From NCBI RefSeq assembly GCF_004684205.1, contig NZ_SRIO01000003.1, positions 1 to 64,000 of the forward strand: DNA of 64,000 nt, read 5' to 3'. This DNA comes from Candidatus Macondimonas diazotrophica (lineage in GTDB: Bacteria; Pseudomonadota; Gammaproteobacteria; UBA5335). A program made the translations under genes and the position numbers. This document shows positions 35,510 through 43,838 of the stretch, in pieces. Numbering within the stretch: position 1 is the first letter of the stretch; every line of letters starts with the position of its first letter. The notes below the pieces were generated by a model. It saw nothing but the letters and a program-made list of their open reading frames with translations, did no database searches and was not told the DNA's origin.

Positions 35510-35833
35510 ATGATGGAGTCGGGTCAGCCGGGCGGTCACGACGGTGAGGCCGTTGTCGAGAATGCCAAGCCGAAGCTCAAGCCGCCGCCCCATTTCAAGG
35601 TGGTCATGCTCAATGACGACTTCACACCGATGGAGTTCGTGGTGCACGTGCTGGAGCGATTTTTTGGCATGGATCGCACCCAGGCCACCCATGTGATGCT
35701 TCAGGTCCACACTCGAGGCAAGGCGGTCTGCGGCATTTATCCGGCCCAGATTGCCGAAACGAAAGTTACGCAAGTCAATGATTACGCGCGCAAGCATCAG
35801 CATCCACTGTTGTCTTCCCTAGAGGAAGCCTGA
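35510..35833 (+). CDS. clpS: ATP-dependent Clp protease adaptor ClpS
   Basis: ClpS, 107 residues; delivers N-degron substrates (Leu, Phe, Tyr, Trp at the N-terminus) to ClpAP. The core is conserved: FKVVMLNDDFTPMEFVVHVL includes the NDD and TPMEFV substrate-pocket residues, and VHTRGKAVCGIYPAQIAETK follows. Two ATGs (35510 and 35513) are possible starts, and the Shine-Dalgarno match is weak. clpA follows after 90 bases. Confidence 0.95.
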   Translation: MMESGQPGGHDGEAVVENAKPKLKPPPHFKVVMLNDDFTPMEFVVHVLERFFGMDRTQATHVMLQVHTRGKAVCGIYPAQIAETKVTQVNDYARKHQHPLLSSLEEA

Positions 35834-35923: not shown

Positions 35924-38191
35924 ATGTTGAGCAAAGAGCTGGAATTCGCCATCAATGCCGCTTTCACCGGCGCTCGCGCCAAGCGGCATGAATTCATCAC
36001 GGTAGAGCATTTGTTGTTGGCTCTGCTGGACAATGCGCTGGTGGCGGATGCGCTGCGCTCGTGCGGCGCAGATCTCGCGCAGTTGGGGCGGGAGTTGCGC
36101 GAGTACATCGACAGCCATACCCCGGTCGTGGATGACCCTGAGCAGCACGATGTCCAGCCCACCCTCGGCTTTCAGCGGGTGTTGCAACGGGCCTTTTTCC
36201 ACGTGCAATCAGCCGGCAAGAAGGAGGTGACTGCACTCAACGTGCTGGTGGCCATCTTCAGCGAACAGGAAGCCCAGGCGGTGTTTCTGCTCAACAAGCA
36301 GTCGGTGACCCGCCTCGATGTCGTCAATTACATTTCCCACGGCATTCGCAAGGTGCATGATCACGAAGAGGAAGATGACGCCTCGGCCGCAGCGGAGTCG
36401 AACGAGAACAACGGCGATCAGGATGAAAATGCCAGCCCACTGGACCTGTATGCCGCCAACCTCAATGCGCGGGCTCGCAAAGGGCGTATCGACCCGCTGA
36501 TCGGACGCGATTCCGAAGTTGAGCGCGTGGTTCAGATCCTGTGCCGGCGTCGCAAGAACAATCCGTTGCTGGTGGGCGAGGCCGGCGTGGGCAAGACCGC
36601 CATCGCAGAAGGCCTGGCCTGGCTGATCACTCAGGGCCGTGTGCCCGAAATCCTCCAGGATGCGACCATCTATGCGTTGGATCTGGGTGCCCTTGTGGCC
36701 GGAACGAAATATCGTGGCGACTTCGAGAAGCGCCTCAAAGGCGTATTGGCACAGTTGCGCAAGCAAAAGGGCGCCGTGCTCTTCATCGACGAGATTCACA
36801 CCCTCATCGGCGCGGGTTCGGCGTCCGGCGGGGTGATGGATGCGTCCAATCTGCTCAAGCCGATGCTGGCGTCGGGAGATCTCAAATGCATCGGCTCGAC
36901 GACGTATCAGGAGTATCGCGGCATCTTCGAGAAAGATCGCGCCTTGGCGCGGCGCTTTCAGAAAATCGATGTTCCGGAACCCACAGTCGACGAGACCTAT
37001 CAGATTCTGAAAGGCTTGCAACGGCATTTCGAGCAATTCCACAAGGTGCGCTATACCCAGCCCGCGCTGCGCGCGGCGGCGGAGTTGTCGGCCCGCTACA
37101 TCACCGACCGTCACCTGCCCGACAAGGCCATCGATATCGTGGATGAAGTCGGGGCAAGTCTGCAGCTGTTGCCCGAGGCGCGACGGCGCAAAACCGTGAC
37201 GGCAGGGGATGTCGAAGCCATCGTGGCGAAAGTCGCGCGCATTCCGCCCAAGCAGGTGTCCCGGTCCGACCGGGAGACCATGCGCAATCTCGAGCGGGAC
37301 CTGAAGCTCGTGATCTACGGTCAGGATGCCGCCATCCTAACCTTGGCCAATGCCATCAAGACCAATCGCTCCGGCTTGGGAAATCCGGACCGGCCGATCG
37401 GCAGTTTCCTGTTTGCCGGACCCACCGGTGTCGGCAAGACCGAGGTCACACGGCAATTGGCGAACGTGCTGGGAATCGAGTTGATCCGCTTCGACATGTC
37501 CGAATATATGGAGCGCCATACCGTGTCCCGTCTGATCGGTGCACCTCCTGGCTATGTCGGCTTTGATCAGGGCGGGCTGTTGACCGATGCCATCCTCAAA
37601 ACCCCGCATGCGGTGGTGCTGCTGGATGAGATCGAAAAGGCCCATCCGGACGTATTCAACCTGCTGTTGCAGGTCATGGATCATGGGACGCTGACTGATA
37701 ACAACGGTCGCAAGGTGGATTTTCGCAACGTGATCGTCGTGATGACCACCAATGCCGGTGCCGAGGCAATGCAGCGTCCGTCGATGGGTTTCACTCTTCA
37801 GAATCACCAGACCGACGTCATGGAGACGATCAAGCGCGCTTTCTCGCCGGAGTTCCGCAATCGCCTCGACGCTATCGTACAGTTCAAGCCCCTCGATGCA
37901 GCGACGATTCTGCACGTGGTGGACAAATTCCTGACCCAGCTGGAAGTTCAACTGGAAACCAAGCGGGTAGCACTGACGGTGAGTGATGAGGCGCGGGCTT
38001 GGCTGGCCGAGCGAGGCTATGACCCGCAGATGGGTGCACGGCCCATGGGCCGCGTGATCCAGGAACAGATCAAGCGTCCACTGGCGGACGAGATCCTGTT
38101 CGGGCGCTTGACCGAGGGTGGGCGAGTCCGGGTCGAGGTGCAGGATGAGCGGTTGACGCTCGAGGTTGATTCGCGCGTTGCGGCTGTCTAG
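35924..38191 (+). CDS. clpA: ClpAP unfoldase subunit ClpA
   Basis: ClpA, 755 residues, the AAA+ unfoldase that works with ClpP and ClpS. Order: N-terminal ClpS-binding domain ([20 protein letters not shown]), an acidic linker near 148-170, the D1 module with Walker [14 protein letters not shown] (about 217), and the D2 module with Walker [12 protein letters not shown] (about 498) and [15 protein letters not shown]. The length matches ClpA rather than ClpB. The stop overlaps the convergent infA stop by 4 bases. Confidence 0.96.
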
Positions 38192-38406
38192 CGGCCCCGG
38201 AAAACGATGCGGCCCTTGGTGAGGTCGTAAGGCGTCAGCTGGACCGTGACGGTGTCGCCGGTCAGGATGCGGATGTAGTGCTTGCGCATCTTGCCGGAAA
38301 TATGGGCCGTGACGACGTGCCCGTTGTCGAGCTGAACCCGGAAGGTGGTATTGGGTAAGGTATCAATGACCTTGCCCTGCATTTCGATCATATCTTCTTT
38401 CGACAT
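38188..38406 (-). CDS. infA: translation initiation factor IF-1
   Basis: IF-1, 72 residues, a single OB-fold protein that binds the 30S A site during initiation. It begins [20 protein letters not shown] and ends [12 protein letters not shown], both typical. It is downstream of aat on the minus strand (52-base gap) and convergent with clpA. This clustering of infA with aat and clpA is conserved in many gammaproteobacteria. Confidence 0.97.
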
Positions 38407-38458: not shown

Positions 38459-39220
38459 CTACAAGCGGCACCGTTGTTCAATGTCTCTGGCCGCGACAAG
38501 TCCCCCGCCAGGAGTGCTGAGATCGGGATCCAGTGGCGCCAGCGGAAGGGGCGGGTCGTCGGTCACGGCACGCGAAAGTTCCTGAAGGAATCGCGGACGC
38601 GGCCACAACTGCGCACCCATTCGCAGCAAGTGTGGCGAGGCGACCTGCGCGTCGATCAAACGGTAATCCCGCCGGGCCAGCTGACAGCCGAGGATGACCA
38701 GCAGGATCTTGGATGCATCCGGTACCCGGCTGAACATCGATTCGCCGAAAAAAACACGGCCCAGGGCGATGCCGTAGAGTCCCCCGACGAGATGATCGCC
38801 ATCCCAGAGTTCAATGGAATGGGCCAGACCCTGGGAATGATGCAGCCGGCTGTAGGCCGCGTGCATCTCCGGAAGCAGCCAGGTGCCGGATTCGGTGCCG
38901 CGTGGTTCGGCGCATGCGTGGACCACCGGGTCGAATGCTTCGTCGATGCTGGCGCGGTAGCGGGCTTGTCGCATGCGCCGTTCAAGGCGACGGGAACGAT
39001 GGATGGCAGCCGGCAGCAGGACGGTGCGGGGATCGGGCGACCACCACAGGATGGGGTCACCCTCGTTGTACCAAGGGAAGATACCGCGCTGGTAGGCGGC
39101 GACCAGCCTTTCTGCGGACAGATCACCGCCGAACGCGAGCAACCCGTCTGGATGGCGCAGGGCGCGTGCGGGGTCGGGGAAATGATCGGGTGGATCATCG
39201 GGCTGCAGCATGGGGATCAT
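38459..39220 (-). CDS. aat: leucyl/phenylalanyl-tRNA-protein transferase Aat
   Basis: Aat, 253 residues; adds Leu or Phe from aminoacyl-tRNA to proteins with N-terminal Arg or Lys, creating ClpS-recognised N-degrons. LLAFGGDLSAERLVAAYQRG and IFPWYNEGDPILWWSPDPR are the family signatures. The start is the ATG at 39220 (MIPMLQPDDPP), which overlaps the stop of the upstream FemAB-like gene (ATGA). The longer open frame upstream is a shadow of that gene. It acts with the nearby clpS and clpA. Confidence 0.95.
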   Translation of the reverse strand: MIPMLQPDDPPDHFPDPARALRHPDGLLAFGGDLSAERLVAAYQRGIFPWYNEGDPILWWSPDPRTVLLPAAIHRSRRLERRMRQARYRASIDEAFDPVVHACAEPRGTESGTWLLPEMHAAYSRLHHSQGLAHSIELWDGDHLVGGLYGIALGRVFFGESMFSRVPDASKILLVILGCQLARRDYRLIDAQVASPHLLRMGAQLWPRPRFLQELSRAVTDDPPLPLAPLDPDLSTPGGGLVAARDIEQRCRL

Positions 39221-40362
39221 GCTGAATTGGTCTTGAACGGGCTGTGCGCGTCCATGCGCGCCGCATAGCGATCGACCCAGTTGCTTTCCTGGGTCAGGAA
39301 ATCGGCGATGGCCTGGCGCAGTGCCGGATGGGCGATGGCGTGTAGCGAGTAGGTCAGACTGGGTAAGAAGCCGCGTGCCAGCTTGTGCTCGCCTTGGGTG
39401 CCCGGATCGTAGTCGGTGAGGCCATGCCGAATGCAGTAGTCGATGCCGCAGTGGTAGCACAATTCGAAATGCAGGCTGTCCCAGTTGCCACGCGTGCCCC
39501 AATAGCGTCCGTAGAGGGTGTGGGCATCCCGGAAAGCGAGGGCGGCGCCGACCAGCGTCTGGTCATCGAAGGCGACAAAGAGCAGCATCTGTTCCCCGAG
39601 TGCCGGGCTGATGCGTTCAAAGAACGCCTGGCTGAGATAGGGGTGATGGCCATGACGATAGAACGTGTCGGCCAGCAAGGGATACACCGCCTGCCAGCGG
39701 TCTGGCGTCATGTCACCGCCCAGCCAGGTTTCCAGCCTCAGTCCGGCGTCGCGGACGCGGCGTCGTTCGCGGCGGATTTTCTTGCGCTTGTCGGCGCTGA
39801 ACATCGAGAGATGGTCATCAAAGTCGGCAAAGCCCTGATTGTGCCAGCGAAACTGACAGGCCTTGCGTAACAGCAGGCCGGTTTCCCGGGACCAATGGTC
39901 GGCCTGCGTTTTGTCCGGAAACAGGCAATGGAAAGAGGACAGGTCGGCGCGTTCCATGCTGGCGAGCGCTGTCTGAACAAGCAGACGATGCGCGTCCTCC
40001 GGATGCCCCGTGGTGGGCAGTGCGCGCGGCCCAGCCACCGGCGTGAACGGAATTGCGGCAACCAGTTTCGGGTAGTAGGCAAGGCCCAGCCTGTCGTAGG
40101 CATCGGCCCACGAAAAGTCGAAAACGAATTCGCCCAGTGAGTGGGCTTTCTGGTAGAGCGGCAGGGCAGCGCACAATTGGCCGTTGTCGTAAGCTGCCAA
40201 ATGGCAGGGCTGCCAGCCTGTCCCGTTTCCGACACAACCGGTCTGTTCCAAGGCGCTGAGATACTCATGGCGCAGGAAAGGATAGCCGCTGGCATCCAAC
40301 GCATTCCACTGCGCGGCGTCGATTTCGTCGAGTCGGGCATGAACACGGACGTGCAGGGACAT
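39217..40362 (-). CDS. FemAB-like / GNAT-fold transferase (COG3146 type)
   Basis: Protein of 381 residues beginning MSLHVRVHARLDEIDAAQWN. It resembles the FemAB-like group annotated as peptidoglycan biosynthesis/recognition or GNAT N-acetyltransferases (Pfam FemAB_like), seen in FVFDFSWADAYDRLGLAYYP, FLRHEYLSALEQTGCVG, RKKIRRERRRV and YDPGTQGEHKLARGF. Members lack an established substrate. The open frame extends far upstream, but the ATG at 40362 gives the family N-terminus and leaves an 84-base divergent gap to ald. Its stop overlaps the aat start by 4 bases. Related genomes often carry bpt, another aminoacyl-tRNA-protein transferase, at this place; the two are not shown to be equivalent. 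Confidence 0.8.
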   Translation of the reverse strand: MSLHVRVHARLDEIDAAQWNALDASGYPFLRHEYLSALEQTGCVGNGTGWQPCHLAAYDNGQLCAALPLYQKAHSLGEFVFDFSWADAYDRLGLAYYPKLVAAIPFTPVAGPRALPTTGHPEDAHRLLVQTALASMERADLSSFHCLFPDKTQADHWSRETGLLLRKACQFRWHNQGFADFDDHLSMFSADKRKKIRRERRRVRDAGLRLETWLGGDMTPDRWQAVYPLLADTFYRHGHHPYLSQAFFERISPALGEQMLLFVAFDDQTLVGAALAFRDAHTLYGRYWGTRGNWDSLHFELCYHCGIDYCIRHGLTDYDPGTQGEHKLARGFLPSLTYSLHAIAHPALRQAIADFLTQESNWVDRYAARMDAHSPFKTNSA

Positions 40363-40446
40363 GGACAGACTCTTGCATGGTCCCGGGATGATTTTCATTG
40401 TACCCCGGTCTGGATCGAAAGCGGGGCCGTTCCAGGAGTTCCAAGC

Positions 40447-41520
40447 ATGCACATCGCCATTCCCAAGGAAACCAAACCCTATGAAGGCCGGGTTGCTCTG
40501 CTGCCGGATGCCTGCGACAGCCTGATCCGTAGGGGGCATGTTGTGACTGTGCAGTCGCAGGCCGGGGAGGCCAGCGGCTACTCCGATGCGCACTATCAAC
40601 GAATCGGTGTCGAAGTTGCCGCGGATGCGGCGGCGACCTACGCCGCCGGCGAACTGATCGTGAAGGTCAAGGAACCTTTGCCGGCGGAATGGGCACTGTT
40701 GCGTGACGATCACCGCTTGTTTTCCTTTTTGCACCTGGCTGCCGCGCCGGATCTGGTCGATGCCCTGTGCCGCCGCGGACTGACGGCATGGGCATTCGAG
40801 ACCGTGAAGGCTGGCGAGCAGTTTCCGCTGCTTGCACCGATGAGTCGCATTGCCGGTGTGCTGGCCATTCATCAAGGCGCGCGCTGGTTGCAGGGCGTGA
40901 GCGGCGGGCGCGGCGTGCTGCTGGGGCGCATGCCGGGTGTGCCACGGGCCCGTGTGGTCGTGGTCGGTTGCGGACAGGCGGGTCTGTCGGCGATCGGGAC
41001 AGCGGCCGCTCTCGGCGCATCGGTCGAGGCGTTTGATCTGCAGCAGTCCGCCTTGGACGCCGCAGCGACCCTGGGCGCCAATGTGACCACACTCTATCCA
41101 CACGGCGATGCGCTGGCCGATGCAGTCGCTGCGGCCGATCTGGTCGTCGGTGCCGTGCTGGTGCCGGGACGGCGGGCGCCCGCGGTGATCACCGAGGCCA
41201 TGGTTCAGCGCATGCGGCCGGGAACCGTGATCGTCGACATCTCCATTGATCAGGGGGGGTGCGTGGAAACCATGGAGCCCCGTGGGTATGATGATCCAGC
41301 TTACCTGCGTCACGGCGTCTGGCACCTCGGTGTGGCCAATCTGCCAGGCGCGGTGCCACGGACCGCCTCTCAGGCCTTGTCTGCAGCGCTGCTGCCTTAT
41401 GTGGCGATGCTGGCAAGTTCGCCGCTGGGCGATGAGCCGGCCGAGTTGGCTTCCGCCTTGAGCATCCGAGGCGGCAAGCTGGTGGATGAACGGGTGCGGG
41501 CCGAGCGCGAGCTGGCCTGA
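40447..41520 (+). CDS. ald: alanine dehydrogenase
   Basis: NAD-dependent alanine dehydrogenase family, 357 residues; interconverts L-alanine and pyruvate plus ammonia. Substrate residues are seen in [24 protein letters not shown] and [10 protein letters not shown]; the Rossmann motif is [15 protein letters not shown] (about 170); and [16 protein letters not shown] carries the family aspartate. The ATG at 40447 follows CAGGAG. A transhydrogenase alpha subunit is less likely given the length, the lack of a beta-subunit gene and the IDQGG motif. ftsK follows closely. Confidence 0.88.
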
Positions 41521-41537: not shown

Positions 41538-43838
41538 TTGTCGCCAAGCCCTGTTTCCGGTTCATCGTCCGCTTCCCGTGCTGGGGCAGCAGGGCGGGGC
41601 CTGCGCGAAGCCTTGTTGCTGCTGGCCATTACGGGTGCCGGCTTTCTGCTGATTGCGTTGTTGAGCTTTCATCCCAGCGATCCGACCTGGAGTCAGATCG
41701 GGGATTCGGGTCCGGTGGACAATCGGGGTGGGGTGCTCGGCGCCTGGTTGGCCGATGCCCTGTTGACGGCCTTCGGTTATCTCGCCTACGGCTTGAGTGT
41801 TGCCTTGGCATACGCCGGTTGGCGATTCTACAAGGTACGCGCGGCGGGGCCGATTCCGCCGGCGGAGCGGCGCTGGCGTCTGGGCGGCGCGGTGCTGGCG
41901 TTTCTCTCGGCCAGCGGCTTGGCTGCCCTGCATGTGCGCGAAGACCTGCTGCCGCTGCCGCAGGGCTCCGGCGGATGGATCGGCGATCGGATTGCCGAGG
42001 CAGCGCTGGCGGCCTTCAATCCCTTCGGCTCCACCCTGATTCTGATTCCGCTGATGCTCGTCGGCATCACGTTGGCCACGCATCTGTCCTGGATCACCTT
42101 GGCCGAAGGCACTGGCCGACTCGTGCTGAAGGGACTGGAAGCGCTGCGGCGAGTGGCGGCGCGGATACGGACGCGCCGCGCGCATCATCCTGGGGTTGAC
42201 GGTGTCCGCGCCGAACCCGTATCTCGCCTGCGGCGGCCGGCCAAGGCATCGGCTGAAGCACTGCGTATCGATCCGCCGCCGCGGCCGGTCAAACGCAGCG
42301 AGCGGGCCGAGCGAGAACGCCAGGTGCCGATTTTCCATGATCCGTCCGATGCCGCGTTGCCGCCGCTCGCCCTGCTCGACCCGGCGCGCGCGATCGAGGC
42401 TGCCTACACGCCGGAGGCCCTGGAGGGGCTCTCCCGGCTGGTGGAGATTAAGCTCGCCGATTTCGGAGTGACCGTCAAAGTGGTGGCCGTGCATCCCGGT
42501 CCGGTGATTACGCGCTTCGAGCTGCAGCCGGCGCCAGGGGTCAAGGTGAGCCAGATTTCGGGTTTGTCCAAGGATCTGGCGCGCGCCCTGTCGGCCGTCA
42601 GCGTTCGGGTGGTCGAGGTGATCCCGGGCAAGTCGGTGGTCGGGCTTGAGATTCCCAATCCGCAGCGCGAACTGGTCTGCCTGAGCGAGATTCTACATTC
42701 CCAGGCCTACGATGATTCCGCCTCACCACTCACGCTGGCGCTGGGTAAGGATATCGGCGGACAACCGGTGGTCGCCGATCTGGGGCGCATGCCACACCTG
42801 CTGGTTGCGGGAACGACCGGATCGGGCAAGTCGGTGGCCATCAACGCCATGCTGCTCAGCCTGCTCTACAAGGCCCGGCCGGAGCAGGTGAGATTGATTC
42901 TGGTCGACCCCAAGATGCTGGAGCTTTCGGTCTACGAAGGCATTCCGCATTTGCTCGCGCCGGTTGTCACCGACATGCGGGATACCGCCAATGCCCTGCG
43001 CTGGTGCGTGGCCGAAATGGATCGGCGTTATCGGCTCATGGCTGCCCTGGGAGTCCGCAACATCGCCGGGCTCAATCGGCGTGTGGCCGAATCGGCACAG
43101 GCCGGCACACCTCTGAGCGATCCCTTGCGTCCGCTGGACGAGGATGGCCAGCCGACGGAACTGGCCAGCTTGCCCTATCTGGTCGTGGTCATTGATGAAC
43201 TGGCCGATCTGATGATGGTGGCCGGCAAGAAAGTCGAAGAGCTGATTGCCCGTCTCGCCCAGAAGGCACGAGCGGCCGGCATTCACCTGATCCTGGCGAC
43301 CCAGCGCCCGTCGGTGGATGTGATCACCGGGCTCATCAAGGCCAATATTCCAACGCGGATTGCCTTTCAGGTGTCCAGCAAGATCGACTCGCGGACCATT
43401 CTCGACCAGATGGGTGCCGAGACGCTGCTCGGCCATGGCGACATGCTCTATCTTCCCCCGGGCAGCGGCTTCCCACAGCGCGTGCACGGGGCATTCGCCT
43501 CGGACGCCGAAGTCCATCGCGTGGTAGATCATCTCAAGAAGCTGGGAACGCCGACCTACCTCGATGAAATTCTTCAGGGTCCGGAAGACGAGGGGAGCGG
43601 CTTTGCCGACACCGAGGGCAGCAGCGATGCCGAGCAGGACCCGCTGTACGATGAAGCATTGAGGCTGGTGACCGAATCGCGCAAGGCCTCGGTTTCCGGT
43701 GTGCAGCGCCGGCTGCGGATCGGCTACAACCGGGCGGCGCGTCTGGTCGAGGCCATGGAGCAGGCCGGCGTGGTCGGTGCCTTGCAGCCGAACGGCTCGC
43801 GCGAAGTGCTGGCGCCACCGCCGGCAGGTCAGGATTGA
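41538..43838 (+). CDS. ftsK: DNA translocase FtsK
   Basis: FtsK, 766 residues; moves chromosome ends to the septum and activates XerCD at dif. The N-terminal part has several hydrophobic segments (about residues 20-180). A short linker follows, much shorter than in E. coli. The motor has Walker [14 protein letters not shown] near 424-436 and Walker [16 protein letters not shown]. The C-terminal gamma winged helix ([20 protein letters not shown]) reads KOPS. The start is TTG at 41538 after GAGAGGA; no in-frame ATG fits better. Confidence 0.95.

Follow-up and report, generated by a model that had tools for sequence, protein, structure and literature searches.

In the systems closest to the gene described here, LFTR (the product of aat) and ATE1 have a GNAT-type fold (PMC10115844). 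In the enzyme group of FemX and DhpH-C, the active residues are Lys305 in FemX and Lys329, with Asn325 and Phe328, in DhpH-C, and a tRNA-binding basic helix sits on the second GNAT domain (review PMC12945691). ClpS, the adaptor of the N-degron pathway, is found in cyanobacteria and plastids (PMC7966870).

The FemAB_like family (PF04339/COG3146) is present in more than half of the alpha- and gammaproteobacterial genomes that we sampled, and related proteins occur in plants and a cyanobacterium; no known activity was found for it. A pterin-enzyme prediction for COG3146 led to a Xanthomonas protein that failed the complementation assay (PMC3223725); apart from this failed prediction, our literature search returned no report on the activity of COG3146/PF04339 or on its link with aat. 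At2g23390, the Arabidopsis member, has been detected in a chloroplast proteome (PMC3531887), and silencing of the cotton homologue leads to sterility with altered lipid and jasmonate genes (PMC4488762). The portions of these two articles that were available contain no biochemistry of the plant members.

Here, we analysed a member of this family, referred to as fem, in a stretch of 64,000 nucleotides of Candidatus Macondimonas diazotrophica (the window), where a first-pass annotation had noticed it next to the N-degron genes clpS, clpA and aat.

Results

Organization of the fem-aat locus

In the window, fem, aat and infA follow one another on the minus strand, convergent with clpS-clpA on the plus strand. 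The features of the locus are:

35510..35833, plus strand: clpS, N-degron adaptor (searches with the window protein recover clpS in related loci)
35924..38191, plus strand: clpA, unfoldase (sequence and related loci)
38188..38406, minus strand: infA, translation initiation factor IF-1, adjoining aat with no bpt between (sequence and related loci)
38459..39220, minus strand: aat, leucyl/phenylalanyl-tRNA-protein transferase (PF03588, TIGR00667)
39217..39220, minus strand: ATGA, in which the stop of fem and the start of aat overlap (sequence; conserved in related loci)
39217..40362, minus strand: fem, FemAB_like (PF04339/COG3146) protein of 381 aa with a tandem GNAT fold (profile match, predicted model)
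39382..39396, minus strand: codons of the motif Q323-G-E-H326-K327, with the candidate catalytic lysine K327 (alignment and review)
39748..39795, minus strand: codons of the basic helix 190-205, ahead of GNAT domain 2 (model and alignment)
40447..41520, plus strand: alanine dehydrogenase-like gene, divergent from fem (named from its own sequence)
41538..43838, plus strand: ftsK, part of a wider syntenic block (sequence and related loci)

The TGA stop codon of fem overlaps the ATG of aat as ATGA, exactly as the first-pass annotation had described for a FemAB-like gene. The identity of aat is supported by PF03588 (E 9e-68) and by the equivalog model TIGR00667 (E 1.5e-60). Profile searches of the window genome, whose assembly is 96% complete, found a single copy each of fem and aat and nothing that matches bpt/ATE_C (PF04377) or the true FemAB model PF02388. 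Lying tail to tail, clpA and infA share 4 bases at their 3' ends (38188-38191). An alternative fem start may lie at an in-frame ATG at 40396-40398, 12 codons upstream and preceded by GGGG.

Linkage of fem to aat and clpS-clpA

The same 185 gammaproteobacterial genomes were searched for fem, aat and bpt with the respective Pfam models. Both fem and aat are on the same contig in 78 genomes, and in 72 of these fem lies upstream of aat on the same strand, at a distance of at most 3 kb. The known pair aat-bpt is on the same contig in 81 genomes and within 3 kb in 77. With aat starts picked by a simple rule, the junction in the 54 related loci that carry both genes is an overlap or a zero gap in 28 cases, with an exact −3 overlap in 21, and the gap does not exceed 30 nt in 39. 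The overlap of fem and aat is not due to chance, since zero gap or overlap recurs in 28 of the 54 loci.

In alphaproteobacteria, where aat has mostly moved away from fem, fem and clpA-clpS still face each other tail to tail: of the 40 same-contig pairs, 37 are convergent and no more than 15 kb apart, and 34 are no more than 8 kb apart. The link of fem to N-degron genes is therefore old, being seen in two classes, and the attachment of the family to aat and clpS on which the first-pass annotation had relied is borne out.

Co-occurrence with aat and bpt

In the gammaproteobacterial survey fem was found in 108 genomes, aat in 137 and bpt in 104. Among the fem-bearing genomes, 103 have aat, 84 have bpt and 83 carry all three genes, which are close together on one strand, in the order fem-aat-bpt, in 41 genomes. 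In the 115 alphaproteobacterial genomes surveyed, fem is present in 63, and 58 of these also have bpt. The two genes are positively associated, both in aat-bearing gammaproteobacteria of at least 2 Mb (p 0.001) and in alphaproteobacteria of at least 2 Mb (p 0.0017), these values carrying no correction for phylogeny.

Mutual exclusion of fem and bpt, as anticipated in the first-pass annotation, is contradicted by these counts. The annotation had also placed bpt often at the position of fem in related genomes; bpt does neighbour aat, but its slot is downstream, between aat and infA, while that of fem is upstream of aat. As fem coexists with bpt (84/108 and 58/63) and occupies another slot, we rejected it as a substitute for bpt. 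In the window genome the slot between aat and infA is empty, and bpt is missing both there and in the sole other sampled genome of the same taxonomic family.

The co-occurrence of fem with clpS was withdrawn as a functional signal because both genes are nearly universal in alphaproteobacteria of at least 2 Mb; it is mostly an effect of genome size. E. coli, a control in the profile searches, has Aat and ClpS and no fem. Two reduced gammaproteobacterial genomes, of 1.19 and 0.9 Mb, keep fem, clpS, clpA and infA, and neither aat nor bpt was found in them by profile search.

Wider neighbourhood of fem

The gammaproteobacterial block around fem also includes infA, trxB and ftsK, and in 20 loci fem is flanked by aat on one side and by trxB/ftsK on the other. 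Among the broken blocks, 7 keep fem beside trxB/ftsK and 2 keep it beside aat only, although 4 of the 7 were chosen because aat is not near, which leaves 3 to 2 without this bias. In 20 of 23 alphaproteobacterial loci, the gene immediately upstream of fem and co-directional with it belongs to the RidA family, and some loci have GDPD and HIT genes nearby; the order in Sinorhizobium is RidA-GDPD-fem-HIT, facing clpA-clpS. Given the extent of the block, the RidA neighbour and the effect of genome size, position alone is no proof of a role in the N-degron pathway.

The fem genes of methanotrophs, Nitrosospira, Halomonas and Massilia are apart from aat, and no consistent conserved partner of such free-standing copies was found in the neighbourhoods of related loci. 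In about 10 loci, free-standing fem has a gene for a small methyltransferase (DUF938-like by eye) as a neighbour, ubiA is near it in some other lineages, including one of the two reduced gammaproteobacterial genomes, and a PII gene is beside it in some lineages. The Pseudomonas aeruginosa plasmid pHOU1-1 (NZ_CP042268.1) carries fem within a long run of housekeeping-like genes.

Family assignment of the fem product

The fem product matches PF04339 over its full length (E 1.2e-137, 459 bits against a curated cut-off of 27, model positions 2-368 of 369) and also matches PF13480, Acetyltransf_6 (E 1.2e-13). The window gene belongs to a widespread orphan family, of which it is an unremarkable member at the usual gammaproteobacterial position. 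At E values up to 1, the window protein has no match to PF02388 or to the FemX model NF047883, nor to the Pfam models of Aat (PF03588) and Bpt/ATE_C (PF04377). Weak but recurrent matches to NF047883 (13 of 66, best E 2.8e-5) and to TIGR03019 (40 of 66, best E 3.5e-9) are seen among its relatives. A paralogy with Aat was rejected, the two proteins having no detectable sequence similarity (hhalign probability 0.5%), and so was a function as a defence gene, there being no PADLOC match.

Predicted fold and conserved residues

The AlphaFold2 model of Fem, built with 66 aligned sequences, has a pLDDT of 94.7 and a pTM of 0.92, and the protein is predicted to be a double GNAT fold of the FemABX type. 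The structures ranked highest by Foldseek and VIA-align all belong to enzymes that depend on aminoacyl-tRNA: FemX (Z 20.9, 296 residues aligned, 14% identity), the streptothricin-type peptide synthases Sba18/Sbb17 (PDB 9wqw-9wqy; Z about 20, 3.3-3.5 Å, about 270 residues), FemA (Z 19.3) and MprF/A-PGS (Z 17-19). CoA-dependent tandem GNATs (Z 15.7) and N-myristoyltransferases (Z about 14) rank lower. LFTR and ATE1 structures are absent from the best 50 matches listed per fold search, which is no argument against a shared fold.

The CoA P-loop, sought as Q/R-x-x-G-x-G/A in the loops that lead into helices 83-91 and 297-312, is missing from both GNAT domains in all 66 sequences; an RxxGxA occurs by accident inside the preceding strand in 13 of them. 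The first-pass annotation had left room for conserved acetyl-CoA-binding residues, and these are not observed. In the same alignment K327 is invariant, as is the motif Q323-G-[E]-H326-K327 except for the glutamate, which is found in 62 of 66 sequences. The spacing of QGEHK is that of the active N-x-x-F-K of DhpH-C, and this match, together with the invariance, makes K327 a candidate counterpart of Lys305 of FemX. Helix 190-205 contains 7 to 10 basic residues out of 16 among family members. GNAT-fold proteins of other function can likewise show basic helices and loss of the P-loop, and PF13480 proteins may commonly have a similar basic helix.

The absence of the P-loop, together with best structural matches that are tRNA-dependent, supports a tRNA-dependent transferase on the grounds of fold and residues, and aminoacyl-tRNA appears the most likely donor. 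Against such a donor stand the window protein's lack of a FemX/FemAB model match and the annotation of plant relatives as acyl-CoA N-acyltransferases. The proposal of the first-pass annotation, a tRNA-dependent transferase in an N-degron cluster, thus gains from the fold, the residues and the linkage in two classes, and loses its part as a stand-in for bpt.

Discussion

We give an even chance to the explanation that Fem is a double-GNAT transferase that would use aminoacyl-tRNA, not acyl-CoA, as its candidate donor and act as a companion of Aat, Bpt and ClpS-ClpA. The CCA end of the aminoacyl-tRNA would be held by GNAT domain 2 and its basic helix, and K327, doing the work of Lys305 of FemX, would move the amino acid onto the amine of an acceptor sitting in the cleft between the two GNAT domains. 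The N-terminus of a protein that feeds ClpS is one candidate for this acceptor. In the window genome Fem is probably co-translated with Aat. Its association with Aat, Bpt and ClpS-ClpA is of long standing, and it does not stand in for Bpt. The confidence that we attach to this explanation overlaps with that of the first two alternatives below, because an N-degron writer would be a special case of it and a housekeeping role leaves the donor open.

Fem could instead be a housekeeping transferase acting on an unrelated acceptor, such as a small molecule, a lipid or another metabolite, which would owe its position near aat and clpA to the inherited synteny of a block of growth genes. We regard this as a strong contender that falls a little short of an even chance. 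The common block with infA, trxB and ftsK and the free-standing copies in many gammaproteobacteria would be expected of such an enzyme, as would the co-directional RidA neighbour (20/23 alphaproteobacterial loci), sometimes accompanied by GDPD and HIT, and a co-occurrence that partly tracks genome size; the lipid and jasmonate changes reported on silencing of the plant homologue (PMC4488762) point the same way. It explains less well why fem is linked to N-degron genes in two classes, in different arrangements, and why the overlap with the aat start is well conserved.

A narrower version of the tRNA-dependent explanation, which we find doubtful, makes PF04339/COG3146 a third aminoacyl-tRNA-dependent N-degron writer, upstream of ClpS-ClpA with Aat and Bpt and perhaps retained by descent in cyanobacteria and plastids. 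Fem would add a destabilising residue (e.g. Leu or Phe) to N-termini that Aat and Bpt refuse, and thereby make them ClpS substrates. An N-degron function of fem is possible, with gene linkage as its whole basis: the operon-like overlap with aat, the convergence with clpA-clpS in alphaproteobacteria and the retention of fem with clpS-clpA in the two reduced genomes without aat and bpt are all consistent with it, and the fold is of a tRNA-dependent type. However, the linkage reaches infA, trxB and ftsK as well, many lineages have fem distant from both aat and clpS, E. coli manages without it, Fem and Aat have no sequence similarity, and the two reduced genomes may retain fem for another reason.

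It is improbable that Fem is an acyltransferase that depends on CoA, such as one whose capping of N-termini would keep proteins out of the N-degron pathway. The GNAT-type fold, with its PF13480 match, would suit such an enzyme, and the plant members are annotated as acyl-CoA N-acyltransferases, by homology only; however, the P-loop motif is missing from both domains in 66 of 66 sequences, and CoA enzymes stand below tRNA enzymes in the structural ranking.

The peptidoglycan of proteobacteria is cross-linked directly and has no amino-acid bridges. An enzyme that modifies peptidoglycan, as the Pfam text on PF04339 and the FemABX fold would have it, is thus highly implausible, the more so as the window genome has no true FemAB (PF02388), no cell-wall synthesis genes were noticed among the conserved fem neighbourhoods and a homologue exists in plants (PMC3223725).

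If Fem, as a tRNA-dependent transferase, does write N-degrons, many bacteria would have more unstable N-termini than the E. coli rule provides for, and the link to ClpS would offer a first testable assay for the family, its plant member included.

Compared with the PF04339/COG3146 family, the window protein shows the full-length match, all the invariant motifs and the gammaproteobacterial order fem-aat, and differs in that bpt, usual beside aat in other lineages, is missing from its genome. With FemX of Weissella viridescens it shares two GNAT domains, and its candidate lysine may sit at the place of Lys305; in contrast, it has no FemX/FemAB model match, the motif around the lysine is another one, and no peptidoglycan bridge is expected as acceptor. 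Sba18/Sbb17 are close in structure (Z about 20) and give the best weak profile match of Fem domain 2, but these are enzymes of antibiotic biosynthesis with 14-15% identity to Fem. Finally, Fem has two GNAT domains and no profile similarity to Aat (LFTR) or Bpt, yet it has in common with them a GNAT-type fold, and aat adjoins and overlaps its gene.
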